A stretch of DNA of 64,000 nt from Halorhabdus amylolytica (lineage in GTDB: Archaea; Halobacteriota; Halobacteria; Halobacteriales; Haloarculaceae): the NCBI RefSeq assembly GCF_004944975.1, contig NZ_SPQG01000003.1, positions 216,592-280,591 on the forward strand, in the 5' to 3' direction. Below, piece after piece: positions 9,674-27,926 of the stretch (position 1 is the first letter of the stretch; the number at the start of each line of letters is the position of its first letter). The translations under genes and the position numbers were made by a program. The notes beneath the pieces are model-generated. The model was given only the letters and a program-made list of their open reading frames with translations, did no database searches and was not told the origin of the DNA.

Positions 9674-10369
9674 ATGGAGGGGATTCGGGCGGAACTCGTC
9701 GTCGAGGACCCACACCGCTGTGACGTGGCCGCGGCCTCCCGCGACTGCGGGCCGGTCTCGTCGGTTTCCCGGAGTGTCGTCCCGGACGCTGAGGGGCGCG
9801 TCCACGACGAGTTCACGGTTCGGGAAGGCGATCGTCCGGCCACACTCGGCGATGCGACAGCGATCTTCCGGGACGACAGACGGACCATCTATCGACTCCC
9901 CCGACCGCAAGGAAAGGGTTGTGTCTGTGAGTGTATCGAACGCGAAGGCTGTACTGTTCGTGACGTACAGGTTGTGGACGGAACGCTGTTTGTGACTGTG
10001 CTCGCCCGTGATCTCGACGGGATCAGGGCGATCGTCTCGACGTTGCGGGAGGCCCAGGACGGGGTCAAAGTGGGGAAACTTCTCAGAGCGCCGCCGGAGG
10101 ACGACGAGGGGCGGCTGTGGGTCACCGATCCGGAAGATCTGACTACCCGCCAGCGCGAGGTGCTTGAGACCGCCTACGAGATGGGCTACTTTGAGTATCC
10201 ACGGAATGCAAGTGCTGAGGTGATCGCGGACGAACTCGGGGTCGCCACACCCACATTCACCGAGCACCTCGCGGCCGCCCAACGCAAACTCCTCGAAAGG
10301 CTACTGGAGAACTCGAACTGTCGATCGGACGCAACTTCGAGGCAGGGCTCCCCCAAAGAGCGGCAGTGA
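9674..10369 (+). CDS. narO: NarO-like anaerobic regulator with Cys motif and HTH_10 domain
   Basis: The 231-residue protein has a cysteine-rich sensor part and a C-terminal bacterio-opsin-activator type helix-turn-helix (HTH_10, about residues 165-220, LTTRQREVLETAYEMGYF). C83-x-C85-x7-C93 together with upstream C16 and C25 gives the CXnCXCX7C signature described for Haloferax NarO and DmsR, thought to hold a redox-sensitive iron-sulfur centre. It is divergent from the nar operon, which supports control of nitrate respiration. The ATG at 9674 is preferred because a TATA box sits 27 nt upstream. A start at 9581 would run through that promoter. DmsR is the main alternative name. Confidence 0.85.
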   Translation: MEGIRAELVVEDPHRCDVAAASRDCGPVSSVSRSVVPDAEGRVHDEFTVREGDRPATLGDATAIFRDDRRTIYRLPRPQGKGCVCECIEREGCTVRDVQVVDGTLFVTVLARDLDGIRAIVSTLREAQDGVKVGKLLRAPPEDDEGRLWVTDPEDLTTRQREVLETAYEMGYFEYPRNASAEVIADELGVATPTFTEHLAAAQRKLLERLLENSNCRSDATSRQGSPKERQ

Positions 10370-10413
10370 ACCGGCGCTGATCACTGCTCGGTCGGGACGG
10401 CCGGTTCTCGCGG

Positions 10414-10665
10414 TTATTTCTCCGCTGCGTCCGTGGAACATCCGTTGCCCTCGACGGCGAAAAGGGTCGACGCCGTGGGAGAGAGTGCCGAGTCGTCTCG
10501 CTCGGCACGCTCGCACAACCGGCGCGCGACTGCGTCCGGATCGACGTTCTCATCGCCGCTCGCTCGGGACGTGGTCGGAGTGACTAACTCTCCCACGAAA
10601 AGCCCTGTAGCGAACAGGTTGGCTCCGAGGGGGCCTCCGTCCGATAGTCGTGGCACTTTGGTCAA
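10414..10665 (-). CDS. Small protein of unknown function coupled to mobA
   Basis: An 83-codon frame whose ATG overlaps the mobA stop by 4 nt (ATGA), the usual sign of translational coupling here. The product is hydrophilic after a weakly hydrophobic start (residues 12-30) and has two Cys residues. Its middle, DPDAVARRLCERAERDDSA, could form a helix. I do not recognise a family. The convergent narO gene ends 44 nt away. Confidence 0.5.
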   Translation of the reverse strand: MTKVPRLSDGGPLGANLFATGLFVGELVTPTTSRASGDENVDPDAVARRLCERAERDDSALSPTASTLFAVEGNGCSTDAAEK

Positions 10666-24173: not shown

Positions 24174-26297
24174 ATGACCGCTGTCCCGACGTCCGAGCCC
24201 CGGTTCGAGACCCTGCAGGCACCGCCCGGTGTACACCTCGTCGATCCGATCGATGGTGGCCAGTTCACGCTTCTGACGCCCGAGCCCGTCGAGTGCACAC
24301 CCTCCTCGACCGACGCGCTGCCAATCCCCGTCGACGGGGCCGTGAGCCTCGACACGGACATCGTTCGAACGCCGTATCTGGTCGGCGTCTGGATCAGGGA
24401 CGCGGCGTTCGACCTCGTTGCACAGTGTACGGGCGGCGACGAAGCGACGTTTGATCCGGACAGCTACGTCGTCGAGTTCTCCTCCGTTCAGCTCAAACTC
24501 TACCTGGGCATCGAGGGTTCCTTTTCGGTCGATGCGACGGGAGATTACGTCGAGTTATCGTTCCCCGAGGCGACCGAGGTGATCGTCGGCATCCGTTCGT
24601 ATCACGAACAGCCGGCCCGTACCATCACGACGACCGACGACATCGACGACGTGATGACCGCGCTCTCCCAGTTCAGAGCGGCGTTGAAAACGACTTCACC
24701 CGAGCGGTCGTTCCCGACGTTGCGCGGACATCCGCCCCTCCTGGAACGGGGCGATGAACTGTCGATCCCGGGCAGTCTCCTCGACCGGGAACCGTCCGTC
24801 TCGATCGAGGTACCAGCCCGGTGGAACCGCGTCCTTCCCGTCGCGCCGTTGGCGTACTATCTCGACGCGGACATCCGAGAAGGTACCCGACCGCGATTGG
24901 TCGCCGACGGTCGATCGATCCCGCTGGACGGACCGGACGGATTCGAGCGCCGCGTCGCGCGCATCCTGCGACACGTCTTCACGCTGGATTGTGTCACGCG
25001 GACGGAGGGGCTGTACAACGTCGATCTGCACGAACGGTCGGTGATCGAGGAGCGGACGACCCTGGACTTCGAGGCATTGTACGACCAGTCTCTCGGGGAG
25101 CGTACCGGCACATACCTCGACGTCCCTTTCGAGGTGGTCGAACCTGCCTCGCCAGAGTGGAAGTTGACCGCGGACGTCCAGCCCGAGGTGGAAAACGTCC
25201 CGGTTCTCCCGTTCCTCGCGGCCGATCTGGCGGAGATCCGCTGTCCACGCCACGGTGACATCACGCCGCGAGTCCTCGAAGACACGTCACCCGATGTTGA
25301 GTCGTTCTTCCGTGAGGAGCCGGTCCTCGTCAGAGGCCCGTCCAGTGCCGTTCGATCTGAAAGCGCCACGAGTCGACCGTCAGTCGAGGATCGCGTGTTC
25401 CGTCCCCAACCGACCGATAGTCTGATGCAGACGTTCGTCGGCGACGGGATCCCGATGGGCGCGACGAAGATGACGCTCGACGCCTTCGAGCGCCGTCTCG
25501 ACTACGAACCCACTGAGTCGGGGCGGATTCGCGTCGATGTCGTGAACAACGAGGAAGCGATGAGTGACGAGTCCGTCGTCTCGGACGTCTACGGCGCCCG
25601 GGAGTGGATCGACTTCGACGTCACGATCCACGACGAGTTGACGCAGAACGAACTCGCCGCCGTACTGCAGGAGGAAACAGACTTCTTCCACTACATCGGT
25701 CACGTTGAAGATGAAGGGTTCCGCTGTACTGACGGCCATCTCGACGCACGCTCGCTGTCCGATGTCGGCGTGGGGGCGTTTTTGCTCAACGCGTGCAACT
25801 CCTACGAACAGGGTCACACTCTGGTCGACGCCGGTGCGTTGGGCGGGATCGTCACGCTCGCCAATATACCCAATCCAACCGCGACAAGTATCGGAATGAC
25901 GTTAGTTCGGCTACTGAACATCGGATTTTCGCTCTCGACCGCACGAGCCTTGCTGGAGAAAGACGAGCAACTCGCAAGCCGATACATGGTCGTCGGCGAT
26001 GGACACGCGAACATCGTCGAGAGTCAACTGGGGTCGCCGGTCCATATGGAACTGCAATCCGTCGAGTCCGACGTGATAAAGCTATCAATCCAGGGGTACC
26101 CGATATCTGATATTCCGAACGGAAGTCTCCGCGATTGGCACTTCGAGCCGTTCGAAGAGAATTGTCTGATGACTGCGTGCCTCGAACGTATCGAGATGAC
26201 TAGCGAGGAGTTTGAGCGTCTCTGTGAGAACGGCGACTTTCCAGTACTATACGAGGAACAACTCGTCTGGAGCGAAGAAATTCTCTCCAGGCTTTAG
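24174..26297 (+). CDS. CHAT-domain (caspase-like) protease, halobacterial type
   Basis: A 707-residue protein whose C-terminal third matches the CHAT clan CD peptidase fold. The catalytic His is H510 in FHYIGHVEDEGF and the Cys is C541 in AFLLNACNSYEQGHTLVDAG, followed by a GGIVTLANIPNPTATSIG segment typical of the helix after the Cys. The N-terminal ~480 residues are beta-rich and acidic, with no TPR repeats, signal peptide or membrane helix, so they probably form a family-specific regulatory part. CHAT proteins act as proteases in gasdermin, TIR-like and CRISPR-linked (Craspase) immunity, but here the partner is unknown. It is convergent with a 46-aa membrane protein and precedes RecA-like and HalX genes. 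Confidence 0.8.
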   Translation: MTAVPTSEPRFETLQAPPGVHLVDPIDGGQFTLLTPEPVECTPSSTDALPIPVDGAVSLDTDIVRTPYLVGVWIRDAAFDLVAQCTGGDEATFDPDSYVVEFSSVQLKLYLGIEGSFSVDATGDYVELSFPEATEVIVGIRSYHEQPARTITTTDDIDDVMTALSQFRAALKTTSPERSFPTLRGHPPLLERGDELSIPGSLLDREPSVSIEVPARWNRVLPVAPLAYYLDADIREGTRPRLVADGRSIPLDGPDGFERRVARILRHVFTLDCVTRTEGLYNVDLHERSVIEERTTLDFEALYDQSLGERTGTYLDVPFEVVEPASPEWKLTADVQPEVENVPVLPFLAADLAEIRCPRHGDITPRVLEDTSPDVESFFREEPVLVRGPSSAVRSESATSRPSVEDRVFRPQPTDSLMQTFVGDGIPMGATKMTLDAFERRLDYEPTESGRIRVDVVNNEEAMSDESVVSDVYGAREWIDFDVTIHDELTQNELAAVLQEETDFFHYIGHVEDEGFRCTDGHLDARSLSDVGVGAFLLNACNSYEQGHTLVDAGALGGIVTLANIPNPTATSIGMTLVRLLNIGFSLSTARALLEKDEQLASRYMVVGDGHANIVESQLGSPVHMELQSVESDVIKLSIQGYPISDIPNGSLRDWHFEPFEENCLMTACLERIEMTSEEFERLCENGDFPVLYEEQLVWSEEILSRL

Positions 26298-26434
26298 GGG
26301 CCGGGATTACCGCTACTGATTGCCGCTGCCGTCCCTCCGAACTGCGTCAGCAACACGAGCAGCATGAACAGGACGCCCATCATTCGCGGGTGCTGTGCGA
26401 GGAAGTTTTCTCCCTCCGATTCTGATTGGCTCAT
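26294..26434 (-). CDS. 46-aa single-pass membrane protein (DUF7503-like)
   Basis: The peptide has an acidic start (SQSESEGENFLAQHPR), one hydrophobic helix (MMGVLFMLLVLLTQFG) and an Ala/Ser/Gly tail ending GNPGP. This pattern, acidic head, HPR, Leu-rich helix, AAA and a C-terminal GP, is that of a halobacterial small-protein family I recall as DUF7503. A Shine-Dalgarno-like GGAGGTG lies about 5 nt before the ATG. Its TAA and the TAG of the CHAT gene share 4 bp on opposite strands (TTAG at 26294-26297). It is too short to be called by many gene finders. Confidence 0.75.
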   Translation of the reverse strand: MSQSESEGENFLAQHPRMMGVLFMLLVLLTQFGGTAAAISSGNPGP

Positions 26435-26690
26435 AGCCACCTCCAAGTTTATTGCAGGTGTGAAAATAGATTTCTAAAGATATCTAACGATTATATATTT
26501 AATATAAAATTAAGTAATATCAAATATATGAATTCGAAATACGGCGTGGAAGCACGCGCTACGCTCTCATTCGCCGGGTCGCACGTATGGATGGCCTCTC
26601 CCGTAAGTTACTTAATTGTTAGTATTGTAATCGTTGGTAGGTAACACAGATGAGAGAAGTACTTGCGGTGCCCCCAGGGAGGGTCTGTCT
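26435..26690 (+). promoter_or_regulatory. AT-rich divergent promoter region of the CHAT cassette
   Basis: Positions about 26455-26550 are strikingly AT-rich for this genome, including TTATATATTTAATATAAAA (26491-26509), then return to normal composition. The region separates the minus-strand 46-aa gene from the plus-strand RecA-like gene and so must hold both promoters. On the plus side, TTACTTAATTG (about 26607-26617) could be the TATA box, and AGGGAGGG (26676-26683) is a ribosome binding site 7 nt before the GTG at 26691. Confidence 0.55.
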
Positions 26691-27287
26691 GTGAGCGACG
26701 AGCTCTCGCCGGGCGTCGACGCTACTGAAACGCCCTCGAACGTTCTCTGTGTCTGTCCGGCGATCGGTAACGCGAAGAACGAACACTGTCGTGATTTACT
26801 GACGCGCGAGGGGCCGCCAGGGACGGTCCTCGGCGTGACGGTCGCGTCCTCGCCAGGCGAACGCATGTCCGAGTGGAGCAATGTGATCGATCCCGTCAGA
26901 ACCACGCTTTCGTTCGTCGATGTCTCTCATGGCGGGCGCTCGGCCGCGATGTCAGCCGATGGGTTCGGCGGCCAGAACGGCGCGATCGTCAACGTCGTCG
27001 AGGTCGAGGACGTCGATCTCCAGCGTATCGGTGCCGAGCTCACCACACAGCTCGAGAACGCCGAAAAGGGTCCCGTCGTCGTCTGTCTCGATTCGTTGAC
27101 TGATCTTCTGCAGTTCGAAACCGAACGAACGCTCCATCGCTTCCTCAACGTGCTCACTGCACGCGTCGAGCAAGCCGATGCGATCGCACACTACCACATC
27201 GACGCTGACGGTCATCCTGACCGGACGTTCGACACGCTCACACCGCTGTTCGACGCGACGATCCGTCCCAACTGCCGTTCAGAGTGA
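26691..27287 (+). CDS. RecA/KaiC-like protein lacking a Walker A motif (DUF7504-like)
   Basis: The GTG at 26691, preceded by a good ribosome binding site, gives 198 residues. The order of elements follows RAD55/GvpD/KaiC ATPases: a first strand NVLCVCPA, a strand ending in the Walker B-like VVVCLDSLTDLLQF (near residue 125), and the helix RTLHRFLNVLTARV with AIAHYHIDADG. The P-loop GxxxxGK[ST] is missing; IGNAKNEHCRDLL stands in its place. It is therefore probably a non-hydrolysing sensor or scaffold. I recall this halobacterial family as DUF7504. Confidence 0.65.
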   Translation: MSDELSPGVDATETPSNVLCVCPAIGNAKNEHCRDLLTREGPPGTVLGVTVASSPGERMSEWSNVIDPVRTTLSFVDVSHGGRSAAMSADGFGGQNGAIVNVVEVEDVDLQRIGAELTTQLENAEKGPVVVCLDSLTDLLQFETERTLHRFLNVLTARVEQADAIAHYHIDADGHPDRTFDTLTPLFDATIRPNCRSE

Positions 27288-27374
27288 GGCGCCTCAACGG
27301 CATCCATTCGTGGGTTCGGTCTACCGACCGCACCCCGATCATTTTTGTCGTTGCCCGTGATACCTCTCTGCACG

Positions 27375-27926
27375 ATGGCCTCGACGCAGGACGCGGTGTT
27401 GGTCGCCTCCCCCGAGGAGGAACAACGGCTGTCTATCACGTCGGTTCTCAGAGACCACTGGCCTGTACGGATCGCGACGACGCTCGACGGCGCGCTGGAC
27501 AGTCTCGACGACTCGATCGCTGTTACCGTCATCGACGAATCTATCGAGGGGGCGCCGTCGGATCTCTTCGCGGCGCGTCTAGAAAACGAGCTTTCTTTTC
27601 AGATCCTGTGGCTCGGTGCGTCGGAGGGACCCTTCGCCGATCGTGCTGAGGCAGTCCTCGACCCCGCTCGCGTCGAGGACCAGTCTCTGACGATCGTCGA
27701 CCGCTTGCAACGGCGGGCACGATACGATCGACTGCTCACCCGGTTTTACGAACTCGCCCGTAGACGCGGACGTGACGACGAGGAATCGACGGCCGAAGGG
27801 AAACCAGCAGCCACCGACGCGGAACTCGACTCGCTGAAACGGGAACTCGACGAAATTGTGGCGGAACTCGACGACGAAGACGCCTTCGAGGTCGCACTCG
27901 GGGACCGACAAACTGTGGACCGATGA
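27375..27926 (+). CDS. HalX-domain protein with degenerate receiver
   Basis: A 183-residue protein. The N-terminal 110 residues have receiver-like alternation (AVLVASPEEEQRLSI..., VTVIDESIEG, FQILWLGAS) but the usual acidic pair after the first strand is replaced by ASP, so phosphorylation is doubtful. RRARYDRLLTRFYELARRRG (about 113-132) matches the start of a HalX helical domain, and the C-terminal ELDSLKRELDEIVAELDDED is a predicted coiled coil. The ATG at 27375 is preferred to one ten codons earlier. It follows the RecA-like gene after 87 nt and may be co-transcribed. Confidence 0.65.
   Translation: MASTQDAVLVASPEEEQRLSITSVLRDHWPVRIATTLDGALDSLDDSIAVTVIDESIEGAPSDLFAARLENELSFQILWLGASEGPFADRAEAVLDPARVEDQSLTIVDRLQRRARYDRLLTRFYELARRRGRDDEESTAEGKPAATDAELDSLKRELDEIVAELDDEDAFEVALGDRQTVDR

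Follow-up and report, generated by a model that had tools for sequence, protein, structure and literature searches.

A predicted CHAT-family protease of haloarchaea and its convergently encoded small partner ending in Gly-Pro: a possible regulated-proteolysis module

Introduction

What might a CHAT protease, a type of enzyme known mainly for executioner roles in bacterial immunity, do in a haloarchaeon, where its gene lies tail-to-tail with that for a protein of only 46 residues? This question is raised by a locus in Halorhabdus amylolytica (G000; genome of 3.46 Mb in 26 contigs), situated within the 64-kb stretch of that genome analysed here (the window). Between positions 24174 and 27926, an initial annotation had recognised a CHAT protease, a tiny membrane protein, a RecA-like protein lacking the Walker A motif, and a HalX protein, and had suggested that they form a compact cassette, possibly a new system for defence or stress response. 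All four proteins were found where they had been placed. The four genes are real; their layout, however, is not that of a simple cassette. The CHAT gene (24174–26297, plus strand) and the gene for the 46-aa protein, DUF7503 (26434 to 26294, minus strand, an orientation the annotation had left unstated), are convergent, with a 4-nt stop-codon overlap, and the latter is divergent from the pair encoding DUF7504 and the HalX-type protein.

Results

Identity of the protease

The 707-aa protein from H. amylolytica had no match in Pfam, NCBIfam, or PADLOC. The Pfam CHAT profile (PF12770) matched 9 of 59 family members (best, 7.7e-5), the home protein not being among them, and a sequence profile of the family had no match in the PDB; only the fold search found relatives. 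The structure predicted by AlphaFold2 from 59 sequences (mean predicted local distance difference test [pLDDT], 88.3) was matched by Foldseek to SAVED-CHAT (PDB 8tl0; 1.1e-6, the best match), separase (2.5e-6), and gingipain R (1.7e-5), all with a probability of 1.00. His506 (codon 25689–25691, plus strand), as well as the catalytic residues His510 (25701–25703, plus strand) and Cys541 (25794–25796, plus strand), are invariant in all 62 aligned sequences of the family. Alignment and fold matches together bear out the CHAT fold with its catalytic His510 and Cys541, and the protein is a predicted CHAT-family (clan CD) cysteine protease. The CHAT geometry on which the original proposal had been made to depend is present at the level of fold and residue identity. 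The CHAT domain is C-terminal; the N-terminal half of the model consists largely of beta strands with mixed helices and contains no all-helical repeat.

A small gene linked to the protease gene

The 46-aa protein (26294–26434, minus strand) belongs to DUF7503 (PF24335; 63.1 bits vs. a cut-off of 27) and has no other Pfam match. That its gene is coding is evident from pooled comparisons with seven relatives, in which the proportion of synonymous differences (pS, 0.45) exceeded that of nonsynonymous differences (pN, 0.19). Linkage was counted in 76 genomes, 46 in a first set and 30 further ones, which together contained 108 DUF7503 matches. In the first set, a CHAT 3′ end lay next to all 57 matches, 56 of which were convergent with that gene, and the gaps were mostly 3–125 bp; among the further genomes, this held for 46 of 51, every one convergent. 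In total, 103 matches were found at a CHAT 3′ end, 102 of which were convergent; the stop codons often overlap, and some gaps are as wide as 100–285 bp. Conversely, 49 CHAT places in the first set lacked DUF7503. The five unlinked matches were near-identical copies of one dispersed element in a single genome. These counts strongly support DUF7503 as the dedicated partner of the CHAT protease. The dispersed element itself (genome G180, L131–L135) is 170–370 bp long, occurs in five places with 88–95% identity, all remote from CHAT genes, and carries a DUF7503-like open reading frame (ORF) with SLGP as its last residues; these are orphan copies of the small gene that may be mobile.

In an alignment of 50 DUF7503 sequences, Pro16 is invariant and is followed by Arg or Lys at position 17 (49/50) and a conserved hydrophobic stretch (residues 18–37 of the home protein; 26324–26383, minus strand) resembling a signal peptide. 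Position 35 is Ala, Val, Ser, or Thr, and position 37 Ala or Gly, without exception (50/50); with small residues at these sites, the −3/−1 rule of signal peptidase I fits. The remaining tail comprises nine residues in 35 cases, eight in 11, and seven in four, and ends in Gly-Pro in 45 of the 50 proteins, including that of H. amylolytica (AISSGNPGP; 26297–26323, minus strand). Among the seven close relatives, the tail core (residues 38–44) changes fast, with a pN/pS of 0.73 compared with 0.26 for the hydrophobic part, and no nonsynonymous differences (pN, 0) were seen at the Gly-Pro end. Judged by these features, DUF7503 looks like a Sec-type leader followed by a variable tail of 7–9 residues; the hydrophobic segment may also possibly be a simple anchor. 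The tails without Gly-Pro in L058, L065, L068, and L081 end in TID, TIS, or TIG, and most fall short of the usual nine residues by the missing dipeptide. A stop codon moved to just before intact Gly-Pro codons was looked for in the shortened tails and was not seen.

Recurrence of the Gly-Pro end in unrelated partners

CHAT genes without a DUF7503 match were often accompanied by another small convergent ORF ending in Gly-Pro. In L055, DUF7503 is replaced by an ORF (10083–10649, minus strand) containing 13 tandem units of 12 residues, TADGNSGGISGP, spaced by Tyr, Phe, or Ser; the repeats are identical in amino acid sequence, while their codons vary synonymously. Six loci from one family, associated with a second CHAT type (L094, L096, L097, L098, L099, and L102), carry unrelated small convergent ORFs that have only the C-terminal [KE]R[VI]S[TS]YxGP in common, and in the codons for this end (KR[VI]S[TS]YxGP), third positions again vary while the residues stay. 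The partner in L092 is a short protein with the C-terminus HTIGGP. Those in L082, L103, L105, L106, L110, and L124 each contain a single helix, preceded in most of them by [HN]P[RK]; they may be very distant relatives of DUF7503. Some Gly-Pro partners contain no membrane helix, and a leader is missing from the KR..STYGGP and repeat forms.

At CHAT genes without DUF7503, 17 of 121 short convergent ORFs at the 3′ end terminated in Gly-Pro (a number that includes two DUF7503 genes and a longer ORF at a methanogen-side locus outside the order), whereas the three remaining positions together yielded 1 of 346; the background among likely genes is 0.5%. Chance, or an origin at the DNA level, was ruled out as the source of the Gly-Pro end by the synonymous codon variation and these position controls. 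In the CHAT tree, partner types were clustered: the KR..YGGP type corresponds to one clade, and those in L055, L092, and L124 are isolated replacements inside the DUF7503 clade. For many CHAT genes of clade B and more distant ones, no Gly-Pro partner was seen. The proposal that the tiny protein is a target or a pore/anchor stands in part: its role as a dedicated partner of the protease is strongly supported (102/108 matches convergent with a CHAT 3′ end), but that of a generic pore or anchor is unsupported in the form proposed, since the feature repeated by the non-homologous partners is the C-terminal Gly-Pro and some have no membrane helix.

A promoter element of the small gene

DUF7503 genes have a common upstream element, TATnaGAaatnTTtAGAtAaaT (14.5 bits), the end of which lies 29–34 nt before the ATG in 43 of 49 cases. 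In H. amylolytica, it reads CGTTAGATATCTTTAGAAATCT (26468–26489, minus strand) and is located 33 nt before the ATG. An element of the same type precedes the non-homologous partners in L055, L092, and L124, all within the DUF7503-type clade, and was absent from the regions upstream of CHAT, DUF7504, and HalX. It is thus a promoter element dedicated to the small gene in this clade. A large regulon was rejected, as a pattern search of 12 genomes returned nine matches (six at partner genes) and 11 for the reversed pattern; a Shine-Dalgarno site, found in only 5 of 50 cases, was likewise rejected as a general feature of the small gene.

Distribution of the protease family

Of 293 genomes in the order Halobacteriales, 268 contained the CHAT family; outside the order, it was found in four genomes from a single further family of the phylum. 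Most members are annotated as hypothetical proteins. The home genome contains a single copy, and the number of matches reaches eight or more elsewhere. Some haloarchaeal megaplasmids also carry the gene (25 records, all typed as non-mobilizable), and no match was found among 50,697 phage records. A PADLOC search of the proteins at the locus gave no significant match, with the hit to ZorB (E = 0.08 over 31 residues) being at chance level. In H. amylolytica, the CHAT gene lies between gltB and leuD, its neighbours being gltB, GNAT, DUF7503, DUF7504, HalX, and leuD; throughout the genus, adjacency to leuD is kept, and gltB and the GNAT gene are retained in some members. The CHAT gene is near-core, with mostly vertical inheritance, and is not an island gene. 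A role in defence is unsupported because of this near-core status, the conserved housekeeping neighbours, and the lack of any match to the defence or phage libraries, and the new defence cassette envisaged for this locus was therefore not substantiated.

Three further arrangements were observed. One genome (G087) contains three tandem CHAT paralogues (L120, 4601–11540, minus strand). A second, deep CHAT clade (L082–L090) is commonly located beside a glyA-like gene and one for a conserved protein of ∼272 aa, with the Gly-Pro partner mostly absent. The homologues from the other family of the phylum (L111–L114) adjoin a conserved protein of ∼140 aa (IVEVGIGRHPEVA...), and no DUF7503-like partner was seen there.

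Neighbouring DUF7504 and HalX genes

The 198-aa protein encoded beyond DUF7503 (26691–27287, plus strand; best start, after comparison with relatives, the GTG at 26691) matches the DUF7504 profile (PF24336) with 127.1 bits against a cut-off of 27. Its model (pLDDT, 86.7) was matched by FlaH, KaiC, and RecA-type domains with a probability of 1.00, and in the alignment the Walker A loop is replaced and unconserved, in agreement with the RecA-like protein lacking Walker A that had been described. DUF7504 was next to CHAT in 32 of 51 sampled loci: downstream and past DUF7503 in the home family, or else mostly directly upstream and in the same direction as CHAT. It is not dedicated to CHAT, with 3–15 copies per genome; a sensing or scaffolding role seems plausible for it.

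The 183-aa HalX-type protein (27375–27926, plus strand; best start, by the same comparison, ATG at 27375) matched HalX (PF08663) below threshold (15.4 vs. 23.2 bits), an assignment supported by relatives with intact receivers, which align with it. Its receiver domain is degenerate: the acidic pair is indeed missing (VLVASPEEE), though the phospho-acceptor position may still be occupied by the Asp of VTVIDES. Of the 51 CHAT loci, 17 have a small receiver/HalX protein as a neighbour; the receivers of the home family are degenerate, several others intact. The linkage of the four genes on which the original proposal hinged holds across genera, with all four present in 12 loci of the home family and several elsewhere. 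DUF7504 and HalX are frequent, though not obligatory, neighbours of CHAT.

Discussion

Established are the near-obligate and convergent linkage of DUF7503 to CHAT, an intact fold with its catalytic residues, a Gly-Pro end that recurs in homologous and non-homologous partners, and, in the DUF7503-type clade, a promoter element dedicated to the small gene. The reading preferred here, albeit tentatively, is that haloarchaea possess a regulated-proteolysis module composed of a CHAT protease and a dedicated small client with a Gly-Pro tail. A cytosolic CHAT cysteine protease would be paired with one such client, encoded tail-to-tail on the opposite strand, and the Gly-Pro tail would be what the protease, or a receptor acting alongside it, recognises. 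In its common form, the client would consist of a Sec-type leader or anchor and the variable tail of 7–9 residues, and in its rare forms, of a soluble peptide or a tandem tail repeat. The protease may be tuned by the receiver/HalX protein and by DUF7504, which is KaiC-like and P-loop-less and frequently shares an operon with CHAT. The client could be a cleaved substrate, an activating ligand, or an exported peptide, with substrate or ligand preferred over export. Several points weigh against the module. The main difficulty for direct recognition is that the leader predicts an extracellular position for the tail of the common form, where a cytosolic protease would not meet it. In addition, 5 of 50 DUF7503 tails lack Gly-Pro, and a Gly-Pro partner is missing from several CHAT clades, those outside the order among them.

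Alternatively, the small protein could be a pheromone-like precursor from which signal peptidase frees a Gly-Pro-ended peptide of ∼9 residues, with the variable core conferring strain or paralogue specificity and CHAT and DUF7504 serving as responder or maturation enzyme. Adherence to the −3/−1 rule at positions 35 and 37 in all 50 sequences, a near-constant tail length with a fast-changing core and an invariant end, the multi-copy precursor form in L055, and the orphan extra copies in one genome are all in favour of such signalling. However, signal peptides are usually less conserved than this hydrophobic leader, two partner forms (KR..STYGGP and the repeat) do without a leader, and no receptor or importer was identified, which leaves this explanation rather unlikely. 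The same doubt attaches to its wider form, in which Gly-Pro-ended peptides from leader-bearing or multi-copy precursors would be dedicated CHAT ligands; archaea would then have, in most members of the order, a system for peptide signalling or self-recognition whose output is proteolytic. The idea of the initial annotation was instead an executioner pair. On a stress or infection signal, CHAT would cleave the small membrane protein, which would then form a pore, as with bacterial gasdermins. The CHAT fold and dyad would suit this role, as would the lone hydrophobic helix, whose presumed cytosolic edge bears an invariant Pro and a basic residue (HP[RK]). It is nevertheless improbable for a protease that is nearly universal, vertically kept beside housekeeping genes, and not associated with defence or phages, and whose partners in some cases have no helix and have the tail end as their recurrent part.

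A proline beside the scissile position is a common means of blocking proteases. The small protein might inhibit the protease, as securin does separase, its Gly-Pro end occupying the active site as a pseudo-substrate; the separase-like fold, one dedicated partner per protease gene, and a separate promoter would be consistent with that. Yet a tail that is exported would be beyond the reach of the protease, and many of the 49 CHAT places without DUF7503 in the first set have no obvious substitute, so that the protease can evidently be kept without the small protein; inhibition, too, is improbable. That the tail-to-tail layout is itself the function, with overlapping 3′ ends or read-through providing antisense control of products that need not interact, would agree with 102 of 103 linked cases being convergent, often with overlapping stop codons. 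Given the gaps of 100–285 bp and the selection of the Gly-Pro end at the protein level, as judged by synonymous variation, this is very unlikely. Translational arrest was also considered, as the Gly-Pro end resembles known stalling motifs.

Among described systems, the proposed module resembles Craspase (TPR-CHAT/Csx29, Cas7-11, and Csx30) in combining a CHAT protease with one dedicated client, and the C-terminal part of the client, proposed to be recognised here, is what Craspase binds in Csx30, without a fixed cleavage motif (PMC11106740). In contrast to Craspase, the home locus contains no TPR region, Cas7-11, Csx30, or CRISPR genes, and the client of ∼46 aa is encoded convergently, in the core genome. 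Nor was a SAVED domain or CRISPR linkage found, despite SAVED-CHAT being the best fold match. Gasdermin systems likewise place a gene for a CHAT or caspase-like protease beside one for a membrane-associated partner, but the partner here is no gasdermin: with 46 aa, one helix, and a Gly-Pro tail, it matches only DUF7503 in Pfam. Separase (with securin) and gingipain R, both of clan CD, are structural neighbours of the protease domain, whereas the N-terminal architecture of the home protein differs. In the Phr, PapR, and SHP pheromone systems of bacteria, a small gene also lies beside that for a cognate cytosolic protein and encodes a leader and a short variable peptide, a pattern that the DUF7503 sequence fits. 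Unlike in these and other RRNPP-like systems, where a TPR receptor binds an imported peptide, the cognate protein here is a protease, there is no TPR architecture in the CHAT model, the gene orientation is opposite, and the peptide is a predicted one. HetF of Anabaena, the founding CHAT protein, has a role in cell division and development rather than defence; it differs in having transmembrane and TPR parts, and no convergent small gene has been described for it (PMC8406250). In the literature library searched, no paper was found on DUF7503, on DUF7504, or on CHAT together with Haloferax or HalX.

Haloferax volcanii exhibits very high caspase-like activity, which the authors of that work take to point to housekeeping roles; Archaea, by their account, lack clear gene homologues (PMC3615174). 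This species has a DUF7503 match, and as DUF7503 is almost always found beside CHAT, a CHAT gene is to be expected there; the CHAT protease is a candidate for the source of that activity. A CHAT protease that is near-core across one archaeal order contrasts with the executioner roles of such enzymes in bacterial immunity. Together with the Gly-Pro small gene that accompanies one major branch of the family, it looks like an undescribed protease-and-peptide unit, and the rule of the Gly-Pro tail provides an immediate handle for work on binding, cleavage, and peptidomics.

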